In this document: one piece after another, positions 9,694-13,627 of the stretch
Numbering within the stretch: the stretch's first letter is position 1
Layout: each line of letters starts with the position of its first letter
From: a virus
DNA: 27,284 bases
IMG/VR virus record: IMGVR_UViG_3300025120_000434
Coordinates: 1 to 27,284 of that record
Strand: one strand, 5' to 3'
Translations under genes and position numbers: made by a program
Notes under the pieces: model-generated
The model's database searches: none
What the model was told of the DNA's origin: nothing
What the model saw: only the letters and a program-made list of their open reading frames with translations

Positions 9694-11022
9694 ATGAAAA
9701 TTGTAGAATTACTTATAGACGAATTAGATAAATTATCAGGTTTTGATGCTGTAGCGTTAGTAGAACAACCAGCTATTGAATCAGATTTTTATGCATTTAA
9801 AAACCAAGACTTAGAAGACATAATTACTTTTGAGTTAATTAAACAGGCAATGTCAGAAAACTTTGAAGGGTTTGACAACCATCCAACAGAGTCTTATTCT
9901 AACCATGATTTACACTTTGACGTCTCTGTTATTAAAACAGATGAAGGTAATAAGTATATTATGAATGGAGAGTTAACACCAGATTTACATTTAGTTACCG
10001 GTAATACCTACTGTTTCGATCAAAGTAATCCTACTAACGACACACACAATATAAGAATCAGTCTTACTAAAGACGGTACTTGGGGTGGAGGAAAAGAATT
10101 TAATAAGGGTGTAGCTGTAATGGGTGATAAGTTATACTTACAAATAACTGACTCTACTCCAAAAGAATTGTACTACTACTGTGTTAATCATGCAGGTATG
10201 GCTAATGATGCAAGAATATATGTAGATACAGAACAAAGAGAAAACTTTGCAAGCTATACAGACTATCCTCAAGGAGCTACAAACAATGCTAAAAGAGCAT
10301 TAAAGTATGCAGAAAAAGAAGGATGGGGATCTTGTGGTACACCAGTAGGTAAAGCTAGAGCTAATCAATTAGCAAAAAGAGAGCCAATATCAGAAGATAC
10401 TATTTCAAGAATGGCATCATTTGAAAGACACAGAAGAAATTCAGATACTCCTTATGGTGAAGGGTGTGGTAAATTAATGTGGGATGCATGGGGTGGAGAT
10501 TCAGGCATAGCATGGGCTCAGAGAAAGTTAAAACAAATTCGTAAAGAAGAACAGTCAAAGCAAAATATCTTTCAGGAGAGCTTCTCTATTACAGGTAAAA
10601 ACGATGCATATAAGTTTGCTTTAGATACAGATGAAATGAGAGTTACAGGTGCATTAATGGTACCAGACAAGCTTATAAAAAGATACGATCAAGAAGGTAA
10701 TGAATACTTTGTTTATTTTTCTAAAAATACAATTAAGCAGATAGCTGATAAGATGATGAAGAATAAATTACTTGATAAAATGAATTTAGAACACGATCCA
10801 AATCAACCGGTAGAAGGGTTTATGACCGAAACGTGGATTGTTGAAGATAGTATGAAAGATAAATCTAGATCTTATGGTTTTGATTTCCCAGAAGGAACAT
10901 GGGTTGGTACTTACCAAATAGAGAATGAAGACATATGGGAGTTAGTAAAAAATAAAACAGTAAAAGGTTTCAGTATTGAAGGTTTCTTTTCTGATAAACT
11001 AATACAAGCTAAAAAAGCTTAA
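9694..11022 (+). CDS. XkdF-type prohead protease with inserted cupredoxin-like and second modules, 442 aa
   Basis: The N-terminus (residues 1-35, ELLIDELDKLSGFDAVALVE, then QPAIESDF) and C-terminus (about 300-442) match XkdF-like phage prohead serine proteases. Candidate catalytic residues are His367 in NLEHD and Ser427 in GFSIEG. This enzyme would cut scaffold and capsid N-termini during head maturation. Two modules interrupt it. Residues ~90-178 look like a cupredoxin: His118, then Cys163, His166 and Met169 in YYYCVNHAGM, the ligand set and C-x2-H-x2-M spacing of amicyanin-type copper sites. Residues ~190-283 form a Cys/Trp-rich module (KRALKYAEKEGWGSCGTPVG, then EGCGKLMWDAWGG) that I recognise from other phage proteins but whose function I do not know. 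A TAA at 11020-11022 ends it. Confidence 0.75.
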   Translation: MKIVELLIDELDKLSGFDAVALVEQPAIESDFYAFKNQDLEDIITFELIKQAMSENFEGFDNHPTESYSNHDLHFDVSVIKTDEGNKYIMNGELTPDLHLVTGNTYCFDQSNPTNDTHNIRISLTKDGTWGGGKEFNKGVAVMGDKLYLQITDSTPKELYYYCVNHAGMANDARIYVDTEQRENFASYTDYPQGATNNAKRALKYAEKEGWGSCGTPVGKARANQLAKREPISEDTISRMASFERHRRNSDTPYGEGCGKLMWDAWGGDSGIAWAQRKLKQIRKEEQSKQNIFQESFSITGKNDAYKFALDTDEMRVTGALMVPDKLIKRYDQEGNEYFVYFSKNTIKQIADKMMKNKLLDKMNLEHDPNQPVEGFMTETWIVEDSMKDKSRSYGFDFPEGTWVGTYQIENEDIWELVKNKTVKGFSIEGFFSDKLIQAKKA

Positions 11023-12267: not shown

Positions 12268-12378
12268 ATGAGTAGAGATAAAGAGGATAGAGAGTTAACT
12301 TGGAAAGAGTTTGAAGAAAGATTAGATATAGTCTTTGAAGAAATAAAAAACCTTATAGAGGATACCTATGGCAGATAA
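12268..12378 (+). CDS. Leader micro-protein of the glycosyltransferase cassette, 36 aa
   Basis: The ATG at 12268 opens a 36-codon frame encoding a highly charged helical peptide (starts MSRDKEDREL, middle WKEFEERLDIVFEEIKNLIE). It ends at TAA 12376-12378, overlapping the next gene's start by 11 nt. The overlap and the promoter just upstream suggest translation and coupling to the glycosyltransferase. No family is recognised. Confidence 0.5.
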   Translation: MSRDKEDRELTWKEFEERLDIVFEEIKNLIEDTYGR

Positions 12379-13627
12379 AATATTTATACAGATTCCATCA
12401 TACAGGGATCCTGAACTTATACCCACAATAGAAGATTGTTTAGAAAAAGCTAAATACCCAGAAAGATTAACTTTTGGTATTTGTTGGCAACACCATAAAG
12501 AAGACGAGTGGGATAACTTAGACAGGTATAAAGACAATCCAAACTTTACAATTATAGACATACCATGGGATGAAAGTAAAGGATTATGTTGGGCAAGAGC
12601 ATCTATTCAAAAACTATGGAAAGGTGAGAAGTATACTTTACAGCTTGACTCACATCATAGGTTCTTACAGGATTGGGATGTAGAGTTAATAGAAATGATG
12701 AAGTTAACAGGTTCAGAAAAACCTATAATAACTTCTTATGCTGGAATGTATGACCCTAAGAACAATGTAAAGTTAAATCAAGACCCATATAAGATGGTAG
12801 CTAAACGTTTTACAGCAGGAGGTACTATTTTATTTTTTCCAGAATCAATACCAAACCATACCTTATTAACTAAACCAATACCGGGTAGATTTGTAAGTGG
12901 TCACTTTTACTTTACTTTAGGTATACACTGTAAGGAATACAAATATGATCCAGACTTATATTTTGCTGGTGATGAAATAAGTCTATCTATTAGGTCTTTT
13001 ACTTTAGGTTATGATATATTTCATCCACATAAGACAGTGGTATGGCATGAATATACAAGAGAGGGTAGAGTTAAACATTGGGATGACCATATATCAGAAA
13101 AAGTAGAACAAATATGGACTGATAGAAACAATATTAGTCTTAAAAGGTTAAGACAAATGCTACAGGAAGAAGATAATGGAACAGATATTGGTGAGTATGG
13201 ATTAGGTAGTGTAAGAACTCATAGAGAGTATGAAAATTATGCTGGTATAGACTTTGCTAATAGAGTATTGCATGAAAGAACAATTAAAGGTGAGACACCT
13301 CCTATAACACATGACAACGATGTTGAATGGAGAACCGTTAAACCACAAGACTACACTTTAGAGGTAGATTGGACTGAACATTGGCCTAAATTAAAATCTC
13401 AGACGAGTTGTACTTGCAACTTTGATTTTATTTACTTAGGTATAGAAAATAAAAATAACCAACTCTTACATAGACAAGATTTAACTAAAGAAGACTTTTT
13501 GAATGGTATCAATACTAAAACTACTCTTAAGTTTACAGCATTTAGTGAACCTTATAAAGTAGTATTATGGCCTCACAAGAAAGATGGAGAATGGTTACAA
13601 CGTATAGACTTTGATTTACCAGCTTAG
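12368..13627 (+). CDS. GlcNAc-transferase-like glycosyltransferase (PF11397-type), 419 aa
   Basis: The N-terminus KIFIQIPSYRDPELIPTI (4-21) followed by RLTFGICWQ (33-41) is typical of the Glycosyltransferase (GlcNAc) family related to Skp1 GlcNAc-transferase. Asp94-Ser-His96 in LQLDSHHRF stands where these GT-A enzymes have a metal-binding DXD/DXH motif. FAGDEISLSIRSFTLGYDIF (about 198-217) is the conserved acceptor-side region, and WHEY follows. It would transfer a sugar, probably N-acetylglucosamine from UDP-GlcNAc, to a protein or glycan. The ~120-residue C-terminal part is not assigned. It lies first in a three-gene sugar-transfer cassette, so virion or host-surface glycosylation is likely; the acceptor is unknown. 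Confidence 0.72.
   Translation: MADKIFIQIPSYRDPELIPTIEDCLEKAKYPERLTFGICWQHHKEDEWDNLDRYKDNPNFTIIDIPWDESKGLCWARASIQKLWKGEKYTLQLDSHHRFLQDWDVELIEMMKLTGSEKPIITSYAGMYDPKNNVKLNQDPYKMVAKRFTAGGTILFFPESIPNHTLLTKPIPGRFVSGHFYFTLGIHCKEYKYDPDLYFAGDEISLSIRSFTLGYDIFHPHKTVVWHEYTREGRVKHWDDHISEKVEQIWTDRNNISLKRLRQMLQEEDNGTDIGEYGLGSVRTHREYENYAGIDFANRVLHERTIKGETPPITHDNDVEWRTVKPQDYTLEVDWTEHWPKLKSQTSCTCNFDFIYLGIENKNNQLLHRQDLTKEDFLNGINTKTTLKFTAFSEPYKVVLWPHKKDGEWLQRIDFDLPA

Follow-up and report, generated by a model that had tools for sequence, protein, structure and literature searches.

Prohead proteases of the HK97 type normally work inside the procapsid. XkdF proteases, cupredoxins and mobile virion domains are already known, each separately. 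Ig-like domains of phages occur in tail fibres, baseplate initiators, and tail and head proteins (PMC7602432), and anammox encapsulins, which are HK97-fold shells, hold cargo with copper-binding cupredoxin domains (PMC6934571). In the ligand loop of blue and red cupredoxins, two to four residues separate the Cys and the His (PMC4059628). We did not find, in the open-licence papers searched, a description of a cupredoxin-like domain in phages, nor of a widespread phage and microbial cupredoxin-like family that lacks a Pfam entry and is inserted in a maturation protease. Here we analyse a window of 27,284 nucleotides from a marine phage, positions 1 to 27,284 of the IMG/VR virus record IMGVR_UViG_3300025120_000434. 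We think it probable that its prohead protease has taken up, in a tolerant linker, a mobile cupredoxin-like accessory module that has an intact type-1 copper ligand set and would bind copper.

The protease ORF, at 9694..11022 on the + strand (as are all features below), encodes 442 residues and reads through without interruption. Residues 311-431 match Peptidase_S78_2 (XkdF, PF14550) with E=1.4e-16 and 61.1 bits against a Pfam cut-off of 24, and the ORF also matches head maturation protease families in PHROGs. The catalytic core spans residues ~309-437 (10618..11004). His367 (codon 10792-10794) and Ser427 (codon 10972-10974) are invariant in a 17-row protease alignment and are therefore taken as the catalytic residues, an assignment that this conservation supports; the XkdF-type protease looks intact from its sequence. 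A preliminary description, made from the letters of the window alone, had proposed an XkdF-like protease with these two residues as catalytic candidates. That proposal agrees with our results, and the six residues it singled out (H118, C163, H166, M169, H367 and S427) all stand where it placed them. Among phage records, the protease gene has no DNA relatives. Between the protease and portal genes, positions 12368-13627 of the window strongly match a GlcNAc-type glycosyltransferase (Pfam E=4.3e-66, phrog_24687).

The full-length AlphaFold2 model of the protease (pLDDT 74, pTM 0.44) runs from an N-terminal beta piece through an all-beta domain and an all-alpha domain to an alpha/beta core, with pLDDT below 50 between modules, at residues 30-72, 179-186 and 287-306. 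The N-terminal piece (residues 1-45, ELLIDEL...GFDAVALVEQPAIE, 9694..9828) is conserved in relatives and was found in nearly all of 56 protease-bearing ORFs. A variable linker follows at residues 46-75 (9829..9918), recognised from the low pLDDT over residues 30-72 and from a DNA gap relative to two close relatives, L003 and L086; the low-confidence linker at residues 287-306 lies at 10552..10611. Relatives that are free of inserts pass from the N-terminal piece to the core within 4-12 residues (L043, 47 to 51; L058, 68 to 74; L032, 40 to 52), and we therefore place the insertion point at the junction of these two parts. The protease had been described as split after ~90 residues, but its conserved N-terminal piece is only ~45 residues long, as the insert-free relatives agree.

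The first inserted module, the cupredoxin-like domain, occupies residues ~76-176 (9919..10221), a span set by model confidence, by fold and profile matches and by the marine phage family to which it belongs. Residues 76-180, modelled with AlphaFold2 from a 72-row alignment of marine relatives, are all-beta with pLDDT 95.4, so that the beta-sandwich anticipated for this region is indeed what is predicted. DSSP assigns strands to domain residues 2-7, 10-15, 23-26, 30-34, 45-48, 65-68, 71-75, 83-88 and 96-101, in a predicted order that is the same as in plastocyanin. His118 (domain residue 43; 10045..10047), the first putative copper ligand, lies in the loop just before strand 45-48, a middle strand. 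The other putative ligands form the motif Cys163-x2-His166-x2-Met169 (10180..10200), in which Cys163 (domain residue 88) terminates the penultimate strand, 83-88, and His166 and Met169 (domain residues 91 and 94) are in the loop preceding the last strand. Type-1 copper ligands of cupredoxins sit at these very places, with a His before a strand and the Cys, His and Met at the final loop.

With the domain alone, the E-values of the PDB fold search were weak, and Ig-like proteins stood among the matches together with copper proteins. Among the matches listed, however, the highest TM-scores by query (0.52-0.54) belonged to plastocyanin, an engineered pseudoazurin and nitrite reductase, against mostly 0.33-0.41 for Ig domains; plastocyanin scored TM 0.54/0.57 against the domain model. 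With the full-length model, copper proteins made up about 32 of the 50 best listed PDB matches, counted from the list, and included nitrite reductase, rusticyanin, plastocyanin, amicyanin and multicopper oxidases. TM-scores of ~0.5 and the many Ig-like matches indicate that any relation to cupredoxins is distant. The predicted structure thus supports a Greek-key-type beta-sandwich at residues 76-176 that is cupredoxin-like, the cupredoxin fold having about eight strands, and distantly related to the solved cupredoxins.

Conservation of the ligands was assessed in two sets. His118, Cys163, His166 and Met169 are invariant in all 17 copies of a diverse phage set, found by similarity and 33-80% identical, while mean column identity across this alignment is only 37%, and we therefore judge the ligand set not to be a product of chance. 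This invariance, which answers the earlier concern that the Cys, His and Met residues might vary among homologues, also leads us to think that the metal site matters. In a larger set of 253 distinct domains, all four ligands were kept in 246, although most of these domains were fetched with a DNA pattern for YYYCxxHxxMG and the counts for Cys, His and Met are biased accordingly. Only the His118 position, which lies outside the search pattern, provides an unbiased conservation test within this set, and it is His in 143 of 146 viral and 106 of 107 cellular copies.

Neither the domain nor its 17 phage copies gave an above-chance match to PF00127 or any other Pfam family, and single-sequence and profile searches found no convincing sequence relatives of the domain in the PDB; matches to Ig heavy chains through a YYC motif had E >0.1 and were read as chance. 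When the domain family was compared by hhalign with a set of 30 PF00127 homologues that the same marine genomes encode, the score was 31.6 and the probability 75%, whereas 100 column shuffles gave a mean of 10.0 and a maximum of 18.1, and a reversed alignment gave 13.0. An earlier comparison that used five PF00127 rows had reached a probability of 24%. In the 30-row alignment, the His, Cys and His of the domain family fall in register with the known PF00127 ligands, His118 being aligned to the first His ligand. The Met is out of register, because the Cys-to-Met loop is longer in PF00127 members. As far as these alignments reach, the relation to PF00127 is visible at the profile-profile level only, and the register suggests that the four ligand side chains would converge on one site. 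The type-1 ligand set with amicyanin-like C-x2-H-x2-M spacing, as first noted, is thus upheld by both invariance and profile register. Convergence or chance, by which the domain would be a beta-sandwich of some other family whose Cys, His and Met residues agree with the ligands by accident, could be argued from the missing sequence-level database match and the modest TM-scores. We hold it to be extremely unlikely, given that the profile score lies far beyond the shuffles with the ligands in register, that copper proteins predominate in the full-model fold matches and that the ligands are invariant.

The domain is not a peculiarity of the protease, as might have been supposed from a single gene, since it recurs in virion proteins of marine phages and in apparently secreted proteins of marine microbes. 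We found it in more than 100 marine viral contigs. In cyanophages, pelagiphages and Methylophilales phages it is carried by tail fibres, by the baseplate wedge gp7 and by further virion proteins; P-HM1 and P-HM2 have as many as five copies. These copies belong to the same family, being ~29-46% identical to the window copy with all ligands kept, and the window domain has a TM-score of ~0.9 to the S-TIM5 protein (AEZ65678.1). They differ from it in lying in tail, baseplate and other virion proteins, without a name or a Pfam family, and in being labelled Ig-like in some cases. The S-TIM5 copy was considered as another protease and rejected, since its PHROG matches are instead to tail fibre, baseplate and virion families. 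Viral fold matches in BFVD reached a TM-score of ~0.9; three further BFVD proteins from pithovirus-like and marseillevirus-like genomes (A0A481Z6J5, A0A481Z7Q7 and A0A481YVH3; TM 0.73-0.79 by query) are small or standalone beta-sandwich proteins.

The YYYCxxHxxMG DNA pattern occurs in at least 120 viral stretches and at least 116 stretches of bacterial or archaeal genomes, most of them marine, judged by title where one was given. Among the cellular carriers are SAR86 proteins that resemble lipoproteins, proteins of Marine Group II that have collagen-like repeats, a protein of a Cellvibrionales bacterium with three copies in tandem and, in Flavobacteriaceae and Photobacterium, very long proteins; apparently these are secreted or surface proteins. 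Three of them illustrate this look: a triple tandem with a C-terminal hydrophobic anchor (L326), collagen-like repeats with a C-terminal domain (L239) and a small lipoprotein-like form (L226).

Such a distribution bears on a further explanation, in which the domain would be a structural or adhesive beta-sandwich like the Ig-like domains of phages, and the conserved residues a zinc or copper site that stabilises the fold and has no redox role. Tail fibres and the baseplate wedge are classes of protein in which phage Ig-like domains have been reported (PMC7602432), some proteins that bear our domain are already labelled immunoglobulin in their records, and tandem copies exist. Yet a strict Cys-x2-His-x2-Met with a distant His is the ligand set of electron-transfer cupredoxins, and a site of purely structural use should have drifted further among copies that are 33-80% identical; we consider this explanation unlikely, if the strongest of the competing ones. 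An immunoglobulin label or PF07686 stands on two carriers, PHM2_106 of P-HM2 (L098) and M4QD42 of MED4-213 (BFVD), labels that may have arisen from the copper-ligand domain.

The same insertion was looked for in other prohead proteases, as the preliminary description had advised, and nine further IMG/VR contigs, in two sublineages, carry the cupredoxin-like domain inside an XkdF protease, always as a single copy per contig and within the protease. The protease copies group in a single supported clade; of its nine rows, one is a long-branched fragment of another protein. A single capture of the domain by the protease lineage is likely on this evidence. In one of the carrier contigs (L090, IMGVR_UViG_3300025508_000113), which is 29,157 bases long, both ends match the protease gene and show the domain copy, a hint that phages of this group have a circular genome of ~29 kb. 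Among the 56 protease ORFs, a set picked for similarity to the query in which some contigs are counted twice, 36 have the order N-terminal piece, alpha module, core; 11 have the cupredoxin-like domain between the N-terminal piece and the alpha module; four have the alpha module after the core, one has no module, and four are fragments.

Other modules are found in the related proteases as well. Some match DUF6884, DUF5824 or DUF3721, and a MuF-like segment, recognised by eye (GPxDxKxRxFCxxM...GSYNCRHxW), occurs in the same linker region, on one or the other side of the alpha module (L006:2719-4476, L087:873-2804). L003 and L086, which are 81% identical to the window, have an extra Cys-containing module of ~45 residues where the window shows a clean in-frame DNA gap. 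This module (PGESxxxxxxRCxxxLxxxGxxxDQAxAIC; in L003:4001-5461 and L086:1748-3208, opposite window 9829-9918) is also present in several other proteases and cleanly missing from the window lineage. The protease ORF L033:3836-5980 has a Cys-rich stretch (LCGNCAFF...MLDCI...GYCEAFDFKC) between the alpha module and the core; its spacing resembled by eye that of a HiPIP-like iron-sulphur protein, but the stretch matched neither Pfam nor the PDB. There had seemed to be no obvious reason for an electron-transfer fold in a capsid maturation protease. Unrelated modules have been inserted in the same linker, and so the linker is, on these comparisons, a tolerant module-swapping site, which is reason enough.

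Comparison of the window with L003 gave dN/dS values of 0.05 in the protease core, 0.12 in the cupredoxin-like domain and 0.15 in the alpha module, dS being close to saturation. These values point to purifying selection on the domain, weaker than that on the core. A copper or redox switch, by which metal binding to the domain would regulate the protease so that maturation follows redox state or copper, would suit a domain that shares one chain with the protease and has persisted in two sublineages and in nine further contigs. We regard such a switch as very unlikely: most related proteases in our similarity-chosen set do without the domain (the 36 ORFs against 11), the modules are connected by low-confidence linkers, and selection constrains the domain less tightly than it does the core.

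The second inserted module, which we call CysW, covers residues ~187-285 (10252..10548). A Cys/Trp-rich module had been noted after the first insert and is indeed present; to this we can add that it is predicted to be all-alpha, with five helices in the full-length model, and that it recurs. It stands before or after the protease core in related ORFs, and is also found in the prohead protease of HGTV-1, a portal-MuF protein of HRTV-28 and a protein of CRP-811 annotated as major capsid protein (MCP). It has no match in Pfam. Copies in these and other proteins of bacterial and archaeal tailed viruses (L380, L381, L382) share the invariant motifs C-G, P-Y, G-C-G and W-G-G. CysW is, on this distribution, a module in its own right that is widespread among phage head genes.

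These properties also allow a cargo explanation, in which cleavage of the linkers at maturation would free the cupredoxin-like and alpha modules in the capsid, to be kept with the DNA or ejected into the next host. Each module is flanked by low-confidence linkers, the protease is expected to act within the procapsid, as is established for the HK97 type, and the alpha module turns up in several head genes, encoding portal-MuF, protease and MCP-annotated proteins. However, we identified no cleavage site in the linkers, and the tail-fibre copies of the same domain are not cleaved cargo. Internal release is a real alternative, and one that we rate as improbable.

We therefore return to the mobile accessory module. 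The preliminary description had placed a cupredoxin-like fold with a type-1-like ligand set inside a prohead protease, and this is supported by the conservation and the predicted structure of the domain as well as by the fold search and the profile comparison. The computed support lies in the predicted fold and the invariance of the ligands, in the modular make-up, in the return of the domain in proteins that are otherwise unrelated, and in purifying selection. We suggest that the tolerant linker between the N-terminal piece and the catalytic core received two self-folding accessory modules, of which one would be the cupredoxin-like domain with its intact ligand set of His118, Cys163, His166 and Met169, and the other the all-alpha module of head genes. 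The former belongs to a large family, as yet uncatalogued, whose members recur much as phage Ig-like domains do. Its site may bind copper, probably being loaded once the particle exits the copper-poor cytosol, and the domain could give the particle stability, adhesion or redox chemistry; it would be a passenger with no part in the proteolytic mechanism. Surface display is less likely for the protease copy than for the tail proteins, because the protease is expected inside the procapsid. A bolder reading is that tailed marine phages equip their particles, and with them the head-maturation protease, with redox-capable type-1 copper centres that carry out chemistry or act as metal sensors in the course of infection; we offer it as a possibility that we doubt. 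In the same reading such centres would come from a mobile family of cupredoxins to which domains in secreted proteins of marine microbes also belong, and on this part we are equally tentative.

What emerges is a cupredoxin-like family that is large, uncatalogued and now unnamed or labelled Ig-like. Its members sit in the virion proteins of phages abundant in the ocean and also in proteins of SAR86, marine Bacteroidota and Poseidoniales that are apparently secreted. If the domain binds copper, ocean virus particles carry metal centres, linking phage particles, copper chemistry and host surfaces. The linker of the XkdF protease is at the same time revealed as a place where modules are exchanged.

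Compared with PF00127 cupredoxins such as plastocyanin, amicyanin and pseudoazurin, the window domain shares the strand order, the His...Cys-x2-His-xn-Met ligands in the same topological places, profile similarity and, with the amicyanin type, the x2 spacing. It differs from them in lying below Pfam detection, in its modest structural similarity, in being a module within virion proteins and in having a copper site that is putative. Like other XkdF / Peptidase_S78_2 proteases, the window protein has the catalytic core, the conserved His and Ser, and the N-terminal piece, but it bears the cupredoxin-like and alpha modules as insertions. The nearest published case of a cupredoxin and an HK97-type shell that we found in the open literature searched is the cargo of anammox encapsulins, in which cupredoxin domains are likewise tied to such a shell (PMC6934571). 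There, however, the domains lie within nitrite reductase or multicopper oxidase cargo and are not inserted in a protease, and the likeness is one without an established common origin. Ig-like domains of phages have, to our knowledge, no conserved metal ligands; moreover, the Ig fold scores of the window domain are lower than its cupredoxin scores, and neither it nor its 17 copies matched an Ig family in Pfam. Nevertheless, the Ig-like domains, among them Hoc, the C-terminal domain of the lambda tail tube and BIG2, are likewise beta-sandwich modules that recur in several classes of virion protein (PMC7602432), and by analogy they appear to be the closest functional parallel to the cupredoxin-like module.
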